A stretch of 64,000 nt of DNA from Alicycliphilus denitrificans K601 (GTDB taxonomy: Bacteria > Pseudomonadota > Gammaproteobacteria > Burkholderiales > Burkholderiaceae_C): assembly GCF_000204645.1 (NCBI RefSeq), contig NC_015422.1, positions 3,241,001-3,305,000 of the forward strand, written 5' to 3'. Positions 3,834-36,453 of this stretch are shown here, piece by piece. The notes under the pieces are model-generated. The model worked only from the letters and a program-made list of their open reading frames with translations. It ran no database searches and was not told the origin of the DNA. The translations under genes were made by a program, and so were the position numbers. Position 1 is the first letter of the stretch. Each line of letters starts with the position of its first letter.

Positions 3834-3892
3834 GACAAAAATTATCGACCGTAAGGACACTACCGCTGTGCTGTAATTGCCGCCACGGACGA

Positions 3893-3978
3893 AACAGGGG
3901 TGTCCCCGCCATGTCGGCGGGCGACTGAGAAATACCCTTCACACCCGATCCAGGTCATGCTGGCGTGGGGAGTTTCCA
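3893..3978 (+). promoter_or_regulatory. TPP riboswitch (THI element)
   Basis: The stretch carries the hallmark THI-box pieces in order: GGGGTG at 3897-3902, a GC-rich variable hairpin, CTGAGAAATACCC at 3925-3937, then GATCCAGGTCATGCTGGCGTGGGGA at about 3947-3971. These are the conserved P2/P4/P5 parts of the thiamine pyrophosphate aptamer. It ends about 50 bases before the thiO start. TPP binding would be expected to reduce expression of thiO-thiS-thiG-thiE. Whether control is by termination or by SD sequestration cannot be decided by eye. Confidence 0.95.
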
Positions 3979-4027
3979 GCACCGGTGCCCAGCCCCGTTT
4001 TGTCCTCCATACAGGACTTGAACGACG

Positions 4028-22781: not shown

Positions 22782-24323
22782 TCAGCCTTGTGCAGCCACT
22801 CGTTCCGCTTTACTTTGTAACTTGTTCAGGGCACTCAGGTAGGCCTTGGCCGACGCGACCACGATGTCCGGGTCGGCCCCCACGCCGTTGACCACGCGGC
22901 CGGCGTTCTGCAGGCGCACCGTCACCTCGCCCTGGCTCTCGGTGGAGCCGCTGATGGCGTTGACGGAGTACAGCACCATCTCGGCGCCGCTTTGCACATG
23001 CGCCTCGATCGCCTTGAGCGATGCATCGACGGGGCCGTTGCCTTCGGAGGAACTGCGCACCTCCTTGCCATTCATGGTGAAGACGATGCTGGCCTGCGGG
23101 CGCTCGCCGGTCTCGCTGTGCTGGGCAAGCGAGACGAAGCCGAACTGCTCCTTGTCGCCGTGCATGCTCTCGTCGCTGACCAGGGCCAGGATGTCCTCGT
23201 CGAAGATCTCGCTCTTGCGATCGGCCAGTTCCTTGAACCTGGCGAAGGCTGCATTGATCTCGCCCTCGCTCTCCAGCTCCACGCCCAGTTCCTGCAGGCG
23301 CTGCTTGAAGGCGTTGCGGCCCGAGAGCTTGCCGAGCACGATCTTGTTGGTGCTCCAGCCCACGTCCTCGGCGCGCATGATCTCGTAGGTGTCGCGCGCC
23401 TTGAGCACGCCGTCCTGGTGGATGCCGGAGGCATGCGCGAAGGCGTTCGCCCCGACCACGGCCTTATTGGGCTGCACGACGAAGCCCGTGGTCTGGCTGA
23501 CCATGCGGCTCGCGGCCAGCAGGTGCTTGGCGTCTATGCCCACCTCCAGGCCGAAGTAGTCGCGCCGCGTCTTGACGGCCATCACCACCTCTTCGAGCGA
23601 ACAGTTGCCCGCGCGCTCGCCCAGGCCGTTGATGGTGCATTCCACCTGGCGCGCGCCGCCAATCTTCACGCCCGCCAGCGAATTGGCCACGGCCATGCCC
23701 AGGTCGTTGTGGCAGTGCACGCTCCAGACCGCCTTGTCGCTGTTGGGCACGCGCTCGCGCAGGTTCTTGATGAAACTACCGTACAGCTCGGGTATGGCGT
23801 AGCCCACGGTGTCGGGAATGTTGATGGTGGTGGCGCCCTCCTCGATGGCCGCCTCGACCACGCGGCACAGGAAGTCCGGGTCGCTGCGGTAGCCGTCCTC
23901 GGCGCTGAACTCGATATCTTCCGCGAGGTTGCGCGCGAAGCGCGTGGACAGGCGCGACTGCTCCAGCACCTGCTCGGGCGTCATGCGCAGCTTCTTCTCC
24001 ATGTGCAGCGGGCTGGTGGCGATGAAGAGGTGGATGCGGGCGCGGCCCGCGTCCTTGAGCGCCTCCGCGGCACGCGTGATGTCGCGATCGTTGGTGCGCG
24101 CCAGCGAGCAGACCGTGGAGTCCTTGATGGCGCGGGCAATCGCCTGCACGCACTCGAAGTCGCCGTTGGAGCTGGCGGCAAAGCCGGCCTCGATCACGTC
24201 CACCTTCAGACGTTCGAGCTGGCGCGCGATGCGCAGCTTCTCGTCGCGCGTCATGGAGGCGCCCGGCGACTGCTCGCCGTCGCGCAAGGTGGTGTCGAAG
24301 ATGATGAGTTTGTCTGTGCTCAT
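22782..24323 (-). CDS. leuA: 2-isopropylmalate synthase, LeuA type 1
   Basis: A 513-residue enzyme condensing acetyl-CoA with 2-ketoisovalerate, the first step of leucine synthesis. The motif [12 protein letters not shown] is at residues 10-21, the metal-binding HCHNDLGMA is near residue 210, and a C-terminal regulatory LeuA dimer domain covers about residues 390-500. This is the short proteobacterial form. A second, long-form isopropylmalate synthase gene lies only 35 bases upstream on the same strand, so both are probably on one mRNA under the leucine attenuator. Citramalate synthase is a less likely alternative. Confidence 0.93.
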
Positions 24324-24358
24324 GGGGTGCCTCTGTCGTGTGAGCGAAAAGCAGGACT

Positions 24359-26026
24359 TTACGCGACGGCAGCCTGCACCTGCGGCACGCGCTCCAGGCC
24401 CGAGAGGATGGCGCGGATGGACGCGGAGACGATGTTGGCGTCCATGCCCACGCCGTACACCGTGTGCTGCCCGTCGATGCGCATCTCCACATAGGCCACA
24501 GCCTTGGCGCCGGCGCCCTCGCCGATGGCGTGCTCGCTGTAGTCGAGCACGCGCACGTCACGATCGAACGCCGAGGACACGGCCTGCACGAAGGCATCGA
24601 TGGGCCCCGTCCCCTCGCCTTCGATCTCCAGCGGCTCGCCCTGCCACTGCAGGCTGGCGCGCAGCGAGAAGCCGCCGTCCTGCTCCTGCATGCGGTAGGC
24701 CGGTGCAGCCACCGACTTGAAGCGATACTCCTGCTGGAACAGGTTCCAGAGGTCCTCCGCCGTCAGCTCCTTGCCGCTGGCGTCCATCTCGCGCTGCACG
24801 GCCTGGCTGAACTCGATCTGCAGGCGGCGTGGCAACTGCAAGCCGTATTCGCTCTCCAGCAGGTAGGAGATGCCGCCCTTGCCGGACTGGCTGTTGACGC
24901 GGATGACGGCCTCGTAGCTGCGGCCCAGGTCCTTGGGGTCGATTGGCAGATAGGGCATGTCCCAGATGTCGCCCTCCCGGCGCTCGGCAAAGGCCTTCTT
25001 GATCGCATCCTGGTGCGAGCCCGAGAACGAGGTGTAGACGAGGTCGCCCACATAGGGATGGCGCGGGTGCACGGGCAACTGGTTGCAATACTCCACCGTG
25101 CTGCGGATGCCGTCGATGTCCGAGAAGTCCAGCCCCGGCGACACGCCCTGGGTGTACATGTTGAGCGCCACGTTCACCACGTCGAGGTTGCCGGTGCGCT
25201 CGCCGTTGCCGAACAGGCAGCCTTCGAGGCGGTCGGCGCCGGCCATCAAGGCCAGCTCGGCGGATGCGGTGCCCGTGCCGCGGTCATTGTGCGGGTGCAC
25301 GGACAGAACGATGCTGTCCCGGCGCTGCACGTGGCGATGCGTCCACTCCACCATGTCGGCGAAGATGTTGGGCGTGGAATGCTCCACCGTGGTGGGCAGG
25401 TTGATGATGCATTTCTTCTGCGGCGTGGGCTGCCACACGTCGGTCACGGCATCGATCACGCGCTTGGAGAATTCCAGCTCGGTGTCCGAATACATCTCGG
25501 GCGAGTACTCGAAGGTCCAGTCCGTCGCGCGCTGCTTCGCCGCCAGTTCCTTGAACAGCCGCGCGTGGCTGACGGCCAGATCGACGATTTCGTCCTTGCT
25601 CATGCCCAGCACCACGCGGCGCATCACGGGCGCGGTGGCGTTGTAGAGGTGCACGATGGCGCGCGGCGCGCCCACCAGCGCCTCGAAGGTGCGGTGGATC
25701 AACGGCTCGCGCGCTTGGGTCAATACCTGGATGGTCACGTCGTCGGGGATACGGTCTTCCTCGATGAGCTTGCGCACGAAGTCGAACTCGATCTGCGACG
25801 CGGAGGGGAAGCCGACCTCGATCTCCTTGAAGCCGATCTTCACCAGTTGCTCGAACATGCGCATCTTGCGCGCTATGTCCATGGGCTCGATCAAGGCCTG
25901 GTTGCCGTCGCGCAGGTCGACGCTGCACCAGATGGGGGCCTTGGTGATCACCGCATCGGGCCAGGTGCGATCCGTGAGGCGCACGGGAGCGGCGGGGCGG
26001 TACTTGGCGGCGGGGTTGTGCAACAT
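24359..26026 (-). CDS. leuA: 2-isopropylmalate synthase, LeuA type 2 (long form)
   Basis: A 555-residue alpha-isopropylmalate synthase of the long clade. The N-terminal motif [15 protein letters not shown] takes the place of the DTTLRDGEQ form, and [13 protein letters not shown] carries the metal histidines. A C-terminal LeuA dimer domain includes [18 protein letters not shown]. The start at 26026 gives the usual N-terminus [11 protein letters not shown]. It follows an 18-codon leucine-rich leader and terminator, and precedes the type 1 leuA. Having both forms in tandem suggests different feedback sensitivity, which is inference. Confidence 0.93.
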
Positions 26027-26088
26027 CGGGGCTCTCTCTTTCAGATGGAACAAGGAAACGAATCCGGCCTGTGCTCCAGCGACCCCGA

Positions 26089-26129
26089 GAAAAAACAAAA
26101 ACGGCCCGTCGCTGGTGCTCACGGGCCGT
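26089..26129 (-). terminator. Leucine attenuator terminator upstream of leuA
   Basis: A perfect 9-bp stem (ACGGCCCGT at 26129-26121 pairing with ACGGGCCGT at 26109-26101, minus strand), an 11-base loop, then TTTTTGTTTTTT-like U tract. It lies between the leader peptide stop and the type 2 leuA start. The last six bases of its 5' arm (GCCCGT) can alternatively pair with ACGGGC in leader codons 13-15 (26171-26166), giving a plausible antiterminator. Confidence 0.92.
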
Positions 26130-26154
26130 GGAAGTAGGTGTGTGTACGCGCGCG

Positions 26155-26211
26155 CTACTGTGCCTGCCCGTTGGACAAGTTGAGTAGTAGTGCTAGCGAC
26201 AGGAAATGCAT
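26155..26211 (-). CDS. leuL: leu operon leader peptide
   Basis: An 18-codon open frame, [18 protein letters not shown] followed by TAG. Six of 18 residues are Leu, encoded by CTG, CTA, CTA, CTA, CTC and TTG, three of them consecutive. CTA is rare in this GC-rich genome. The intrinsic terminator begins 26 bases after the stop. The layout is that of a classic amino-acid attenuator: slow translation at the Leu codons would free ACGGGC to pair with the terminator arm and let transcription enter leuA. A weak GAG precedes the ATG by 8 bases. It starts 23 bases after the stop of the upstream LysR gene. Confidence 0.88.
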
Positions 26212-26233
26212 GGAGTGCACTCTAGCACAAAAA

Positions 26234-27142
26234 CTAAGCGCTGCCAGCCCTTCCGTCCATCAGCCGCTCTTCGAGAAAGGTACGGAACCCCTGCGCCGCC
26301 GGTGACGGCGCCCTGCCGCGGCGCGTGAAGATCCAGAAGCTGCGCTCCACCACCGGGTCGCCCACCGGCCGCATGACCAGCCCGAACTGCTCGACGAGCG
26401 AGCGCGCATAGGGCATGCACAGCGTGATGCCCAGGCCCGCGCGCGCCAGCGCCAGCGCCGTGGTCATGAAGGTCACCTGCATGAAGGCCTCCTTGTGCAG
26501 GCCGCGCGCGGCCTCGCCCACGTCGCTCACCAGCAGGTCCGTGAACTGACCCTGCAGGGTGATCAGCGACTGCCCGGAAAGGTCGTGCCACTGCAGCGTG
26601 CGCCGGCGCGCCAGCACATGGCCCGGCGGCATCACGGCCATAAAGGGCATGCAGAAGAGCCGGTCGGCCGCGATGTCCGAATTGGTCTCGCGCTCCGGGC
26701 CTATGCCTATGTCCACCTCGCCGGAAAACACCCGCGCCATCACGCTCTCGACCGCGCAATCGACCAAGCGCAGGTGCACGCCCGGGTGCTGCGCACGAAA
26801 CCCGGCCATCAGCTCGGGCAGCAGCGTGCAGGCGAGCAGCTGCGGCACAGCCACGCGCACGCTGCCGCGCTGCAGCGCCTTGAGGTTGCCTACCTCGCTG
26901 ACCACGCCATCCAGGTCGTGCAGGATCTTCTCGATCTGCGGATAGAGCTCGCGCGCCGTGTCGGACAGGCGCAGGCGGCGCGTGCTGCGGTCGAAGAGGC
27001 GCAGGCCCAGGGACGCCTCCAGCTCCTTGATCAGGCCGCTCAAGGCCGACTGGGTGATGAAAAGCCGCTCGGCCGCCAGCGTGAAGCTGCCGGTCTCGGC
27101 CACCGCCACGAAGGCACTCAACTGGCGCAGCGTCACATTCAT
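26234..27142 (-). CDS. LysR family transcriptional regulator
   Basis: A 302-residue LysR protein with an N-terminal winged HTH (residues 1-60, AAERLFITQSALSGLIKELE) and a C-terminal effector-binding domain. It is divergent from the VOC/transporter/hydrolase genes, with 132 bases between starts, the classic arrangement for a LysR activator of an aromatic catabolic operon. A TGAT-N11-ATCA dyad at 27147-27165 in that gap is a possible binding site. Its stop is only 23 bases before the leucine leader peptide on the same strand. Confidence 0.9.
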   Translation of the reverse strand: MNVTLRQLSAFVAVAETGSFTLAAERLFITQSALSGLIKELEASLGLRLFDRSTRRLRLSDTARELYPQIEKILHDLDGVVSEVGNLKALQRGSVRVAVPQLLACTLLPELMAGFRAQHPGVHLRLVDCAVESVMARVFSGEVDIGIGPERETNSDIAADRLFCMPFMAVMPPGHVLARRRTLQWHDLSGQSLITLQGQFTDLLVSDVGEAARGLHKEAFMQVTFMTTALALARAGLGITLCMPYARSLVEQFGLVMRPVGDPVVERSFWIFTRRGRAPSPAAQGFRTFLEERLMDGRAGSA

Positions 27143-27146
27143 CAGA

Positions 27147-27165
27147 TGATCTTATAAGTGCATCA
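27147..27165. promoter_or_regulatory. Possible LysR-type operator dyad
   Basis: TGAT at 27147-27150 and ATCA at 27162-27165 form a short dyad with an AT-rich centre (CTTATAAGTGC), just upstream of the LysR gene start and before the candidate promoter of the divergent operon. Position and shape fit LysR sites, but the arms are only four bases. Confidence 0.4.
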
Positions 27166-27176
27166 CTAAATACCGT

Positions 27177-27205
27177 TTGAATGATAAATCCATGGGGACT
27201 TTAAT
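27177..27205 (+). promoter_or_regulatory. Candidate sigma-70 promoter for the VOC-MFS-FAH operon
   Basis: TTGAAT at 27177-27182, a 17-base spacer, then TTTAAT at 27200-27205 (four and five of six consensus bases). It lies 69 bases before the VOC gene and just downstream of the possible LysR dyad. Confidence 0.6.
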
Positions 27206-27218
27206 ACACCTCATTCTT

Positions 27219-27253
27219 CAAGCCGATGCAATCCCTCCAACGGCTTGTTTTTT
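27219..27253 (+). terminator. Terminator-like hairpin in the 5' leader of the VOC operon
   Basis: CAAGCCG (27219-27225) pairs perfectly with CGGCTTG (27241-27247) around a 15-base loop, followed by six T (27248-27253). It sits after the candidate promoter and before the AAGGAG at 27263-27268. It could attenuate transcription of the catabolic operon. Confidence 0.55.
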
Positions 27254-27274
27254 CAACCTACCAAGGAGACAACC

Positions 27275-27829
27275 ATGGCCTTCCTCAATGGCGTCCACCA
27301 CGTCGCTTACCGCTGCAAGAACGCTAAAGCAACCGTCGAGTGGTACCAAAAGTACCTGGACGCGAATTTCATCCTCGCCATCGCCGAAAACCAGGTGCCC
27401 TCGACCAAGGAGCCCGACCCCTACATGCACATCTTTATCGACATCGGCGGCGGCAACATCCTGGCCTTCTTCGAACTGCCCACCAAGCCCGAGATGATCG
27501 CGCCCTCGGATGCCAACACCCCGTCCTGGACACAGCACTTGGCGCTCAAGGTCGATTCCATCGAAACGATGATGAAGGTCAAGGCCAGGATGGAAGCCGA
27601 CGGCATCCAGGTCATAGGCCCCACCAATCACACGATCTTCCAGTCCATCTACTTCCGCGATCCCTCAGGCCACCGGCTGGAGCTGGCCGTGAACACCGCC
27701 ACGCCGCAAATGGACAAGGCACTCGACGACGTGAAGTGGGACATGCTCAACGAGTGGGACCGCACCAAGAAGGCCCCCACCCACGCGCGCTGGATGCACG
27801 ATGGCTCGGGCCGCATCGGATCGGACTGA
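27275..27829 (+). CDS. VOC family protein (glyoxalase/extradiol dioxygenase fold)
   Basis: A 184-residue protein of the vicinal oxygen chelate superfamily. Candidate metal ligands fall in the expected places: His in GVHHVAYRC (residues 7-15), His in WTQHLALKV (near 90) and Glu in GHRLELAV (near 135). A full His-His-Glu set is consistent with a metal-dependent dioxygenase, isomerase or lyase. It is the first gene of an operon with an aromatic acid transporter, a fumarylacetoacetase-type hydrolase and a maleylacetoacetate isomerase-type GST. AAGGAG at 27263-27268 supports the ATG at 27275. The reaction is unknown; a ring-cleavage step is possible. Confidence 0.85.
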   Translation: MAFLNGVHHVAYRCKNAKATVEWYQKYLDANFILAIAENQVPSTKEPDPYMHIFIDIGGGNILAFFELPTKPEMIAPSDANTPSWTQHLALKVDSIETMMKVKARMEADGIQVIGPTNHTIFQSIYFRDPSGHRLELAVNTATPQMDKALDDVKWDMLNEWDRTKKAPTHARWMHDGSGRIGSD

Positions 27830-27857
27830 CTCTTTCCCACAGAGATCGGAAAACGCC

Positions 27858-29231
27858 ATGACAGCCCATTCCCTCAACCCGTCGCAAGCACCGCAGATCA
27901 ACGTGACCGAGTTGATCGACCGCAATCACATTGGCGTTCGCCAGTGGATGATTCTCATCCTGTGCGGTGCCTGCATGGTGATGGACGGATTTGACGTGCA
28001 GGCCATTGGCTATGTGGCGCCAGCCATTCTTCAGGAATGGAATATCGAGAAATCCGCCATGGGCCCGGTGTTTGGCGCTGGCCTGTCTGGCCTGCTGGTG
28101 GGCTCATTGGTGCTGAGCGTGCTGTCCGACAAGATCGGGCGCCGCCCGGTGCTGATCGCGTCGACATTCTTCTTTGCCGTGTGCATGCTGGTGACCCCGC
28201 TGGCGGACAACGTAGAGCACCTGGTGGTTCTGCGCTTCGTCACCGGCCTCGGCCTGGGCGCCATCATGCCCAACACGATGGCCCTGTGCGGCGAGTTCAG
28301 CCCGCAACGCCGCCGCGTGTTCGTGATGATGTTGATCTCGTGCGGCTTCACCGTCGGCGCGATGCTCGGGGGCATGGTCGCTGCTGCGCTTATTCCCTCC
28401 TTCGGTTGGAAATCGGTGTTCTATGCAGGCGGCGCGATTCCGCTGATCATCGCCATCACAATGATGTTCTGGCTTCCTGAATCCGTACAGTTCCAGGCAC
28501 TGCATGGTGTTCCCGCCGGACGCATCCTGCCCGTGGTGCGCCGATTGTTGCCGCAAGAGCACATCCCCGCAAACGCCGAAATCGCACGCCCTGCAGCAAA
28601 ACCCAAGGGTGCACCCATGGTCAGGTTGTTTGCGGAAGGCCGCACCACCGGCACCCTCACCATCTGGTGCATCAGCTTCCTCAACATGATCGGCCTGTAC
28701 TTCCTATCGCAATGGCTACCCACATTGGCCAAAGGAGCAGGGTTGACGATCCAGACCGCGGTGCTGCTGGGAACAATGCTGCAGCTTGGTGGAACGATCG
28801 GCACCATCCTGATGGGAGCGCTCATCGACAAATATGGCTTCAAACCCGTGCTGCTGGGTTGCTTCATACTGGCTTTCATTTCCGTGGCTTCCATTGGCCA
28901 CGCATCGAATGAACTGGTCGTGCTGTTTACCAGCGTGTTCGTGGCAGGTTTCATGGTGATCGGCGGCCAGCCGGCGATCAATGCGCTCGCCGCCAGCTAT
29001 TACCCCACTGCCCTGCGCACCACGGGTGTCGGCTGGAGCCTCGGCGTCGGACGCATCGGCTCGGTTTTGGGACCTGTGGTCGGTGGCCAGCTCATCGCGC
29101 TGAGTTGGTCGCAAGCCAACCTATTCCATGTGGTGGCAATACCGTCGCTGTTGATTCTGGGCCTGCTGCTCTTTGGCGTCCAGGTGACTCGCAAGCCCCT
29201 GTCGGCAGCCGAAGCCCCTGCTGCTCACTGA
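27858..29231 (+). CDS. MFS transporter, aromatic acid:H+ symporter (AAHS) type
   Basis: A 457-residue major facilitator with 12 predicted membrane segments. The AAHS hallmark DGFDVQAIGYVAP is in the first membrane segment (D..D pair), and the loop motif SDKIGRRPVLI follows segment 2. AAHS proteins import benzoate-type acids (PcaK, BenK, GenK). It lies between the VOC gene and the FAH-family hydrolase, pointing to uptake of the ring compound degraded by this cluster. By eye its base composition is less GC-rich than that of its neighbours, a hint of separate ancestry. Confidence 0.9.
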   Translation: MTAHSLNPSQAPQINVTELIDRNHIGVRQWMILILCGACMVMDGFDVQAIGYVAPAILQEWNIEKSAMGPVFGAGLSGLLVGSLVLSVLSDKIGRRPVLIASTFFFAVCMLVTPLADNVEHLVVLRFVTGLGLGAIMPNTMALCGEFSPQRRRVFVMMLISCGFTVGAMLGGMVAAALIPSFGWKSVFYAGGAIPLIIAITMMFWLPESVQFQALHGVPAGRILPVVRRLLPQEHIPANAEIARPAAKPKGAPMVRLFAEGRTTGTLTIWCISFLNMIGLYFLSQWLPTLAKGAGLTIQTAVLLGTMLQLGGTIGTILMGALIDKYGFKPVLLGCFILAFISVASIGHASNELVVLFTSVFVAGFMVIGGQPAINALAASYYPTALRTTGVGWSLGVGRIGSVLGPVVGGQLIALSWSQANLFHVVAIPSLLILGLLLFGVQVTRKPLSAAEAPAAH

Positions 29232-29306
29232 CATTTCAAAACTTCCTTTCCATCAACGGATTGCCGGGGCTGAACCTCCATCGTCCCCGCACCAAAGAGA
29301 ACGAAC

Positions 29307-30320
29307 ATGAAACTCGCCACCCTGCAACAAGGCGGCCGCGACGGCACGCTAGTCGTCGTCAGCCGCGACCTCGCACACTGCCGCGCCGTGCCCGCCATCG
29401 CCCGCACCCTGCTCGCCGCGCTGGACGACTGGGCCACGGTCGAACCCCAACTGCGCCAGGTCTACGAGGCCCTGAACAGCGGCGCCATCAAGGGCGATCC
29501 CTTCGACCAGGCCGCCTGCCACTCGCCGCTGCCCCGCACTTGGCAGTGGGCCGATGGCTCGGCCTACATCAACCACGTGGAGCTGGTGCGCCGCGCGCGC
29601 AATGCCGAGGTGCCCGAGAGCTTCTACACCGACCCGCTCATGTACCAGGGCGGCAGCGACGGCTTCATCCCCCCTTATGGCAAGATCGTGGCCCAGGATG
29701 CCTGGGGCATCGACTTCGAGGCCGAGGTCGCCGTGGTCACCGGCGACGTGCCCATGGGCGCCACGCCCGAGGAGGCCGCGAAGGCCATCCGCCTAGTGAT
29801 GCTGGTGAACGACGTGTCGCTGCGCAACCTGATCCCGTCCGAGCTGGCCAAGGGTTTCGGCTTCTTCCAGAGCAAACCCGCCAGCGCCTTCAGCCCCGTG
29901 GCCGTCACGCCCGACGAGCTGGGCGACGCCTGGCGGGACGCGAAGGTGCACCTGCCGCTTGTAGTGCACCTGAACGGCCAGCTGTTCGGCAAGCCCGATG
30001 CGGGCGTGGACATGACCTTCGATTTCGGCCGGCTCATCGCCCACGTGGCCAAGACGCGCACCCTGTGCGCGGGCTCGATCATCGGATCGGGCACGGTGTC
30101 GAACAAGCAGGGCAGCCTGTGGGGCTCGTCGATCGCCAACGGCGGCGTGGGCTACTGCTGCCTGGCCGAGGTGCGCACCTACGAGGCCATCGAACAGGGC
30201 AAGCCCGCCACGCCCTTCATGAAGCACGGCGACACGGTGCGCATAGAGATGTTCGACGGCCAGGGCCGCAGCGTCTTCGGCGCGATCGAAAACCAGGTGG
30301 ATACGCGCAGCGCCGCCTGA
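29307..30320 (+). CDS. Fumarylacetoacetate hydrolase family protein
   Basis: A 337-residue FAH-fold enzyme. The metal-binding acidic region IDFEAEVAVVTGDVP, the segment LVNDVSLRNLIPSE and the C-terminal glycine-rich SIIGSGTVSNKQGS are present. FAH-family enzymes hydrolyse the C-C bond of fumarylacetoacetate (homogentisate route) or fumarylpyruvate (gentisate route). A maleylacetoacetate isomerase-type gene follows after 10 bases, so the pair carries out cis-trans isomerisation and hydrolysis of a ring-cleavage product. Which of the two substrates is used cannot be decided, because no homogentisate or gentisate dioxygenase of the known cupin families is in the window. Confidence 0.9.
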   Translation: MKLATLQQGGRDGTLVVVSRDLAHCRAVPAIARTLLAALDDWATVEPQLRQVYEALNSGAIKGDPFDQAACHSPLPRTWQWADGSAYINHVELVRRARNAEVPESFYTDPLMYQGGSDGFIPPYGKIVAQDAWGIDFEAEVAVVTGDVPMGATPEEAAKAIRLVMLVNDVSLRNLIPSELAKGFGFFQSKPASAFSPVAVTPDELGDAWRDAKVHLPLVVHLNGQLFGKPDAGVDMTFDFGRLIAHVAKTRTLCAGSIIGSGTVSNKQGSLWGSSIANGGVGYCCLAEVRTYEAIEQGKPATPFMKHGDTVRIEMFDGQGRSVFGAIENQVDTRSAA

Positions 30321-30330
30321 TCCTGCCCCC

Positions 30331-30999
30331 ATGCTCAAGCTTTACTCCTACTTCCGCAGCTCCGCGGCCTACCGCGTGCGCATCGCCCTGGCGCTCAAAA
30401 GCCTGGCCTACGACACCATCCCCGTGCATCTGCTCAGGGATGGCGGCCAGCACAACGGCAGCGCCTACCGCGGCGCCAACCCGCAGGGGCTGGTGCCCGC
30501 CCTGCAGATGGCCGAAAGGGGGCCGGTGCTGGCGCAGTCGCTGGCCATCATGGAGTACCTCGACGAGGTGCACCCCGCGCCCGCCCTGCTGCCCGCCGAC
30601 GCTCTGGGCCGCGCGCGCGTGCGCGGCCTGGCGCACATGGTGGCCTGCGAGATCCACCCGCTCAACAACCTGCGCGTGCTGAACTACCTGACGCAGGAGC
30701 TGGGCGTGTCCGGCGCGCAGAAGGACGCCTGGTACGCCCACTGGGTGGCGCTGGGGCTGCGGGCCGTGGAAGACGTTCTCGCGCGCAGCGGCGACACAGG
30801 GCGCTTCTGCCATGGCGACACCCCCGGCCTGGCCGACTGCTGCCTGGTGCCCCAGGTGTTCAACGCGCGGCGCTTCAACTGCGCGCTGGACGCCTACCCC
30901 ACCATCGCGCGCATCGTCGATGCCTGCGAGCAATTGCCCGCGTTCCGACAGGCCGCGCCGGACATGCAGCCGGATGCGGAGCACGCCCTCGCCCGTTGA
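30331..30999 (+). CDS. maiA: Maleylacetoacetate (or maleylpyruvate) isomerase, zeta-class GST
   Basis: A 222-residue zeta-class glutathione S-transferase. The N-terminal active-site motif RSSAAYRVRIAL is at residues 9-20, and the cis-Pro glutathione site lies in GLVPALQ. These enzymes isomerise maleylacetoacetate to fumarylacetoacetate, or maleylpyruvate to fumarylpyruvate, using glutathione. The gene ends the catabolic operon and converges on pssA with 24 bases between the stops. The symbol maiA is by family; a gentisate-pathway NagL-type role is an equal alternative. Confidence 0.88.
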   Translation: MLKLYSYFRSSAAYRVRIALALKSLAYDTIPVHLLRDGGQHNGSAYRGANPQGLVPALQMAERGPVLAQSLAIMEYLDEVHPAPALLPADALGRARVRGLAHMVACEIHPLNNLRVLNYLTQELGVSGAQKDAWYAHWVALGLRAVEDVLARSGDTGRFCHGDTPGLADCCLVPQVFNARRFNCALDAYPTIARIVDACEQLPAFRQAAPDMQPDAEHALAR

Positions 31000-33614: not shown

Positions 33615-33754
33615 GAGATGTGCTTCCTCTTTTTGCGACGACAGCACGATCAAAAAAATGGTCGCTGAAAACTGTCGTTTTTCGCTGCCCTCCCCCGGCG
33701 CCGGTAAGCGCCAGGCTTGGCAGGCAATAGATTCGTCAAAGAATGCTATTCGAT

Positions 33755-35859: not shown

Positions 35860-35885
35860 GGCCCGTCACGGGCCTTTTGTCTTTT
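35860..35885 (+). terminator. Terminator-like hairpin abutting the sigma factor start
   Basis: GGCCCGT-C-ACGGGCC at 35860-35874 followed by TTTTGTCTTTT. It looks like an intrinsic terminator, but its T tract runs into the TTG start of the sigma gene at 35884, so it lies in that gene's leader. It may attenuate the sigma gene or cover its initiation site. Confidence 0.6.
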
Positions 35886-36453
35886 GGCTACCGAACACGA
35901 GCTTTCCGACTTCCTCAAGAGCGTGGACAAGCGTGCCTTCAAGCGCACGCTGTACCACGTTCGCAACGAGGAAGCGGCCCTGGACATCGTTCAGGACAGC
36001 ATGCTCAAGCTCGCGGAGCACTACGGCGACAAGCCTCCGGGCGAACTGCCCATGCTGTTCCAGCGCATTCTCACGAACTGCACGCTGGACTGGTTCCGCC
36101 GGCAAAAGACCCGCAATGCGCTGTTTTCCAGCCTGAGCGACTTCGAAGGGCCGGGCGAAGACGGGGCCGACTTCGACCTGCTCGAAGTCCACGCCGGCCT
36201 CCCCGAGGGCGAAACCGCGCAAAGCGCCGAAGATACCCTTCGGCGAACGCAGGTTCTGCAGGCCATCGAAATAGAGATACAACAATTACCCGCGCGTCAA
36301 CGAGAAGCTTTTTTGATGCGTTACTGGGAGGAAATGGACGTCTCGGAAACGGCAGCCGCCATGGGCTGCTCCGAGGGCAGCGTAAAGACGCATTGCTTCC
36401 GCGCCGTCCAATCGCTCAGCAAGGCACTGAAGGCCAAAGGAATCGTGCTATGA
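35884..36453 (+). CDS. ECF-type RNA polymerase sigma factor
   Basis: A 189-residue sigma-70 family protein. Region 2 is near residues 10-80 (EEAALDIVQDSMLKLAEHY, DWFRRQKTRNA) and region 4 at about 128-180 (LPARQREAFLMRYWEEMDV, MGCSEGSVKTHCFRAVQSL). The start is taken as the TTG at 35884, giving the ATEHELSDFLK N-terminus I recall for the Burkholderiales family; no clear SD precedes it. The next gene (DUF3619) overlaps as ATGA. No classic anti-sigma protein is evident, but the DUF3619 membrane protein is a candidate partner. Confidence 0.88.
   Translation: MATEHELSDFLKSVDKRAFKRTLYHVRNEEAALDIVQDSMLKLAEHYGDKPPGELPMLFQRILTNCTLDWFRRQKTRNALFSSLSDFEGPGEDGADFDLLEVHAGLPEGETAQSAEDTLRRTQVLQAIEIEIQQLPARQREAFLMRYWEEMDVSETAAAMGCSEGSVKTHCFRAVQSLSKALKAKGIVL

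Follow-up and report, generated by a model that had tools for sequence, protein, structure and literature searches.

The 64,000-nt stretch of Alicycliphilus denitrificans K601 DNA analysed here (the window) carries on its minus strand two tandem, unlike 2-isopropylmalate synthase genes (22782–26026) behind one short element. The reading that fits this element best is a ribosome-mediated leucine attenuator, presumably one that responds to leucine. The full account, to which we give a probability of roughly 0.8, is that of a charged-Leu-tRNA attenuator of leuA with a leaderless start and with a post-terminator helix in the read-through RNA. An attenuator had been proposed at this place in an earlier note on the DNA; that reading is supported, though incomplete, and it had overlooked both the probable leaderless start and the conserved post-terminator pairing. 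Between 26227 and 26026, the minus strand presents in order the −10 box, the leader ORF, a GC-rich spacer, the terminator, and the U tract, followed by leuA (Table 1). The terminator loop is 11 nt long, and leuA starts 63 nt past the U tract. The gene for the type 1 synthase begins 35 nt downstream of that for the type 2 enzyme and, by position, belongs to the same operon. On the other side of the element, a block of genes (26234–30999) separates pssA from leuA, comprising a LysR regulator, an aromatic-acid type transporter, a protein with weak matches to fumarylacetoacetate hydrolase, and a maleylacetoacetate isomerase.

Table 1. Features of the leuA upstream region and of the genes behind it, in the order in which they are transcribed (window coordinates)
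Feature	Position	Strand	Remark
Candidate −35 hexamer CTGGCA, in the 3′ end of the LysR gene	26242..26247	−	Found by eye
Extended −10 box TGC-TAGAGT	26219..26227	−	Ends 7 nt before the leader ATG
Leader ORF, 18 codons and TAG	26155..26211	−	ATG at 26211, TAG at 26157–26155
Leu-codon segment CTACT, protector 5′ arm	26186..26190	−	Predicted to pair with 26159–26155 without a ribosome
ACGGGC, antiterminator arm, leader codons 14–16	26166..26171	−	6 pairs to GCCCGT, 26126–26121
AGTAG at the leader stop codon	26155..26159	−	Partner: Leu codons (protector) or CTACT 26137–26133 (base of the antiterminator)
CTACT upstream of the terminator	26133..26137	−	Antiterminator partner of AGTAG
Terminator 5′ arm, ACGGCCCGT	26121..26129	−	9 perfect pairs; doubles as antiterminator 3′ arm
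CCAGCGAC, part of the terminator loop and first 2 nt of the 3′ arm	26108..26115	−	Loop-side strand of the helix
Terminator 3′ arm, ACGGGCCGT	26101..26109	−
U tract, TTTTGTTTTTT	26090..26100	−
GTCGCTGG (segment 4), past the U tract	26076..26083	−	Read-through RNA only; complementary to the terminator loop
Purine-rich leuA Shine-Dalgarno region, AAAGAGAGAG	26032..26041	−	Role assigned by eye
leuA, 2-isopropylmalate synthase type 2, 555 aa	24359..26026	−	NCBIfam NF002991, TIGR00970 above cut-off
2-isopropylmalate synthase type 1, 513 aa	22782..24323	−	NCBIfam NF002087, NF002086, TIGR00973 above cut-off

For the upstream comparison, 80 named relatives of type 2 LeuA were fetched. By a simple rule that calls for an ATG-started leader, a Leu-rich leader stands upstream of leuA in 72 of these 80 loci, an unconvincing one (L106) among them, and the eight misses include two loci (L089 and L097) that come almost without upstream DNA. 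With these two dropped for too little upstream DNA and L106 because it has no terminator of this kind, the window and the other 77 loci made up 78 rows, 62 of which were left by a 95% redundancy cut; alignment A1, from which L092 was left out by hand, holds 61 rows (the window and 60 relatives). A covariance model was built from 59 rows (A2, with L107 and L090 also out), with the terminator as its only structure. At E ≤ 0.001, the model has matches in 343 of the 398 genomes from the window's own family, including 306 of the 349 that are of good quality, and a well-supported leucine attenuator is thereby assigned to most of the genomes searched in one family; the window's own genome yields just one element. 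Outside the family, four matches above 60 bits were obtained among 399 genomes of the order, all in genus g150 of family f10. A leuA gene of type 2 or type 1 lies directly downstream at all 62 strong-match loci examined, some of them overlapping, and none was present in the fetched stretch at any of 15 loci with weak matches (≤33.9 bits). The element finder, which requires GGCCCG..CGGGCC, gave 170 elements, reduced to 165 by the removal of matches not at leuA and to 121 by a 90% redundancy cut; variant stems (at least those of L170, L208, L210, and L217) stand outside these 121.

The leader frame, whose absence from relatives had been named beforehand as a ground for abandoning the attenuator reading, thus recurs in them together with the terminator and the antiterminator arm, and a chance origin is very unlikely because of this conservation. 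The same observations bear on a simpler explanation, namely that the hairpin merely terminates the upstream LysR gene and that the leader ORF is a product of chance. The LysR stop codon does lie only 22 nt upstream of the leader ATG; in five relatives, however, translation of the upstream frame reveals a PssA-like C-terminus, not LysR, directly before the leuA leader, and yet leader and terminator are in place. Given that leader, promoter, and terminator recur widely and that the leader frame is rich in CTA, we find this explanation scarcely credible.

The leader itself had been described as 18 codons long, with six Leu codons including three rare CTA, and both the letters and the codon counts agree with that description. 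The six are CTG, CTA, CTA, CTA, CTC, and TTG. In six genes of the window, CTA accounts for none of 226 Leu codons, as against 285 of the 532 Leu codons (54%) in the 121 non-redundant leaders. Leaders of the form ..GRRR are frequent among relatives, where this is one of two common forms. The codon-position entropies of 67 leaders of equal length (1.09, 0.80, and 1.12) give a weak coding signature, and the rare CTA codons are a stronger sign of coding than these entropies.

Immediately upstream of the leader lies a putative promoter. Of 119 non-redundant leaders, 101 have their best-scoring extended −10 box ending 6–8 nt ahead of the ATG, compared with 9% for shuffled upstream DNA, a count from which the two GTG-started leaders of the 121 were omitted; TGNTANNNT ends at this distance in 97 of the 119, and the TG motif of the extended −10 is present in 115. 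An SD-like 4-mer at the usual place occurs in a single one of them. The candidate −35 hexamer of the window, CTGGCA, shares four of six positions with TTGACA at a spacer of 17 nt, and a stricter promoter scan did not report it. Given that the −10 box sits 6–8 nt from the ATG and that SD-like motifs are almost absent, the leader mRNA is probably leaderless, with transcription starting at or next to the A of the ATG, which points to the occurrence of leaderless leader peptides in the window's group. There are precedents in the available text of two reports: the trpL RNA of Sinorhizobium meliloti (rnTrpL) has its 5′ end at the ATG of its leader ORF, as we suppose for the window's element (PMC7298713), and leaderless transcripts are known from Burkholderia cenocepacia (PMC4603805).

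Downstream of the leader, a perfect 9-bp terminator with a U tract had been claimed, and it can be read as such from the minus-strand letters. Its pairs are formed in 99.1% of cells over the 61 aligned rows. A consensus terminator scan, which admits loops of 3–8 nt, missed the terminator of the window with its loop of 11. RNAalifold returned the terminator alone, crossing helices lying outside its model. As to the alternative fold, the complementarity between ACGGGC in the leader and GCCCGT in the 5′ arm of the terminator is as had been stated, and only the assignment of ACGGGC to leader codons 13–15 needs correction, the codons being 14–16 (AAC GGG CAG). The antiterminator helix is formed in 91.8% of cells over the 61 rows and in 90.4% in shuffles; since its columns hardly vary, what they display is conservation and not covariation, and covariation thus neither supports nor refutes this helix.

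The choice between the two folds was modelled on RNA that does not yet include the 3′ arm of the terminator, with the bases covered by a ribosome held unpaired. For the window, a ribosome whose A site holds Leu codon 6 or 8 gives an antiterminator probability in silico of 0.998, one at Leu codon 9 or 10 gives 0.997, and the value falls to 0.50 at Leu codon 4 and to 0.016 at Leu codon 12. The last of these codons would not regulate because a ribosome there covers the antiterminator arm. With the ribosome at the stop codon the probability is 0.003, and without any ribosome it is 0.10, so the prior claim that the antiterminator would form only when a ribosome stalls on the Leu codons holds in silico. 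In the ribosome-free RNA of the window, the Leu codons are predicted to pair with AGTAG, forming a protector hairpin. Over the 121 elements, the median antiterminator probability is 0.98 at the best Leu stall and 0.02 at the stop codon; it exceeds 0.5 at the stop codon in 10 of 121 and without a ribosome in 42 of 121, and the protector hairpin would for this reason not be general. All 121 exceed 0.5 at their best stall, a lenient criterion because 66% of controls with shuffled leader tails pass it as well. In equilibrium folds of the RNA up to the U tract, the terminator wins over the antiterminator in every one of the 121 elements, from which it follows that the switch would have to be kinetic, as in classical attenuators.

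On these grounds, the following course of events may be proposed, with the alternative pairings taken from folding in silico and the response to leucine presumed. RNA polymerase would start at the leader ATG or 1–2 nt from it, and the ribosome would load on the 5′ end of the RNA. With ample leucine, the ribosome would reach the stop codon and cover ACGGGC, the terminator would form, and transcription would end some 115–120 nt into the transcript. When charged Leu-tRNA is scarce, the ribosome would stall at the rare CTA codons, leaving ACGGGC and AGTAG to pair with the 5′ arm of the terminator and the segment before it, and the antiterminated polymerase would proceed into both leuA genes.

Transcripts that read through would carry a further pairing, that of the terminator loop with segment 4 beyond the U tract. 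In the window, 26115–26108 and 26083–26076 are complementary at all eight positions. The helix columns of A1 are paired in 88.6% of cells, with 65 cells changed on both sides against 23.7 in shuffles, and the helix score of 0.357 compares with 0.161 after shuffling and with at most 0.094 when the partner is slid by 1–3 columns. In an alignment-free comparison, the match of an element to its own downstream sequence outdoes at least 95% of shuffles in 106 of the 121 cases, and own partners give 22.03 compared with 17.48 for permuted ones, the largest of 2000 permutations reaching 18.38. The 21 elements before type 1 leuA behave alike (own 21.40, permuted 19.05, largest 20.83). In a set of 74 elements whose terminator region is found in no named locus nor in the window, own partners give 21.84 against 18.01 permuted, a value reached by none of 5000 permutations, and 64 of the 74 are individually significant. 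With a single representative per distinct loop core (27 in all), own partners give 20.03 against 15.96 (0 of 10000 permutations reach it), with the own partner ranked first in 8 and among the top three in 15. Without a redundancy cut, 171 of 214 leucine attenuators pass the loop-downstream test compared with 16 of 159 other terminator-like hairpins, a comparison list in which some hairpins stand at several stem lengths and in which six of the 16 passing rows are leucine attenuators with variant stems.

L208, a variant element, has its terminator stem changed on both arms (ACGGCTCGT/ACGAGCCGT) and retains the loop pairing, and genome G044, which possesses two elements (L185 and L015), one before each leuA type, has differing terminator loops and correspondingly differing downstream segments. 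A parsimony count on the leuA tree, in which several rows were out of register, gave the helix no support: 4 double and 14 single changes keep a pair, 14 single changes restore one, and 38 changes break one, and with the columns slid by one as a control, 3 double changes still keep a pair. No significant downstream partner was detected for 15 of the 121 elements (e.g., L169, L214, L222, and L223), which keep leader and terminator. Taken as a whole, the loop-downstream pairing predicted for the read-through RNA is supported by conservation and by matched variation. Eight positions are paired at frequencies of 0.90–0.99, with 0.90 at position 0 and 0.19 at +1, values that describe the edge of the helix in the 106 significant elements and do not test it. 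Position +1 is the G that directly follows the initial C of CGGGCC, and the edge lies at the terminator stem. Given that pairing stops where the stem begins, with a junction of zero nt, we read the helix as a putative H-type pseudoknot on the terminator hairpin, or, when the antiterminator has formed, as a simple hairpin.

As the helix is present only after the polymerase has passed the U tract, it cannot decide termination. Most likely, it would form in cis and shape the leader of the leuA mRNA, through either translation or stability. Our tentative proposal, held at somewhat below even odds, goes further: the terminator loop would be the first strand of a conserved pseudoknot (or of a pairing in trans) made only upon read-through, and leucine attenuation in the window's family would thereby have a second layer of control on the leuA message. 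Such a layer after read-through was not found for any amino-acid attenuator in the available parts of the literature searched.

The main rival to a role in cis is action in trans by the terminated leader RNA, whose loop would pair with the segment before leuA in the read-through mRNA and lower leuA expression when leucine is plentiful, which would add a small-RNA layer. Conserved complementarity would be expected equally in cis and in trans, and S. meliloti offers a parallel: rnTrpL, an RNA concerned with tryptophan, is reported in the available text to act in trans on trpDC mRNA, whereas in the window's element such action is at most conceivable (PMC7298713). However, the median distance from segment 4 to the leuA start is 37 nt over 71 loci, which puts the segment mostly outside the usual initiation site, and the cross pairings between the two elements of G044, at 16.0 and 19.5, are lower than their own pairings, at 24.0 and 20.8, although by little in one direction. 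Action in trans is thus unlikely, and a helix formed in cis remains the preferred reading.

The helix could also terminate transcription a second time or assist termination, as a hairpin made after read-through and followed by T-rich DNA. The frequency of T is 0.36–0.39 over the four positions that directly follow segment 4 and 0.18 further on, and at least 5 T are found within the 8 nt after segment 4 in 15 of 106 elements. However, 44 of the 106 have 0 or 1 T there, and the corresponding 8 nt of the window are free of T; the excess of T, confined to a minority of elements, may in part simply extend the helix, and a terminator so placed would oppose antitermination. We regard this role as quite improbable and have rejected it. 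Still another candidate is a lock, whereby antiterminator and helix, once segment 4 is made, together form the most stable fold and keep the terminator from re-forming in the mRNA. With a stalled ribosome and RNA reaching just past segment 4, the window conforms to it in silico, with probabilities of 0.06 for the terminator, 0.91 for the antiterminator, and 0.94 for the helix. However, in nested folds only 14 of 106 elements do so, against 3 with segment 4 shuffled; moreover, the helix avoids the very terminator arm that locking would require, and once the RNA of the window is extended to leuA, competing folds favour the terminator again. The lock, true in the window, is therefore doubtful as an explanation and was rejected as a model for the family. 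Two further candidates were set aside. Masking of the leuA start by segment 4 is not a general role, the pairing being found in 13 of 71 loci, nine of which are from Variovorax, and a DNA operator disagrees with a spacing between the two strands of the helix that varies from 17 to 39 nt and with the retention of complementarity rather than sequence. The preferred reading, a helix in cis that shapes the leuA message, brings up the question of what the loop of an intrinsic terminator does once the polymerase is past; if the helix does control this message, attenuators of this kind would be two-stage switches, and the 15 partnerless elements are natural tests of the need for it.

We know of no loop-to-downstream helix in the leu element of E. 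coli, from which the element of the window further differs in being probably leaderless and in having an antiterminator that reaches into codons 14–16, besides the conservation of its loop-downstream helix. Comparative predictions of bacterial amino-acid attenuators are reportedly given, to judge from the titles, by Vitreschak et al. (2004) and by Seliverstov, Lyubetsky and co-workers (Mol Biol 2010), and these may already list leuA attenuators of the window's family. According to the available text on the leu attenuator of E. coli and Salmonella, a leader peptide containing Leu residues and a terminator before leuA are combined there with leader translation that picks the fold; the first two are shared by the window's element and the third probably so, and the leader there has 28 aa as compared with 18 in the window (PMC6123439). 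A second system, the actinobacterial LEU element, is likewise described, in the part of its report that is available, as having Leu codons in a leader peptide and, ahead of leuA, a conserved pseudoknot, so that it resembles the window's element with its leader peptide and its putative pseudoknot close to leuA (PMC1262725). Its Leu codons, however, pair with the Shine-Dalgarno box of leuA and the other parts of an attenuator are said to be missing, with no obvious terminator (PMC1262725), whereas the window's element is built around a terminator, from whose loop the pairing sets out. Neither a leucine attenuator of the window's family nor such a loop pairing was found in the literature searched, which consisted mostly of papers outside subscription and was available in part (including PMC2965389, PMC8632094, and PMC4833913). 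The element of the window has what can be tested for in a ribosome-mediated leucine attenuator, namely the leader, the terminator, and, in silico, the antiterminator.

Rfam includes a leucine leader family. At the element of the window, no Rfam family reached its threshold, the best sub-threshold match being CC0196 with 15.7 bits against 35, and a scan of ten relatives likewise gave no family at threshold; the leucine attenuator described here thus lies in a family of bacteria where, in the window and these ten, no Rfam family matched. Elsewhere in the window, an ilvH RNA (RF02993, 86.3 bits) was seen at 33670–33737 on the minus strand, between the genes for the large and small subunits of acetolactate synthase, and a TPP riboswitch (RF00059, 59.4 bits) at 3886–3988 on the plus strand. 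A hairpin of the form GGCCCG..CGGGCC, with a T-rich stretch after it, also lies at 35860–35886 on the plus strand; it was read on the minus strand, shares its stem core with the leu terminator, and is located near a plus-strand gene that, labelled by eye, may encode a sigma factor.
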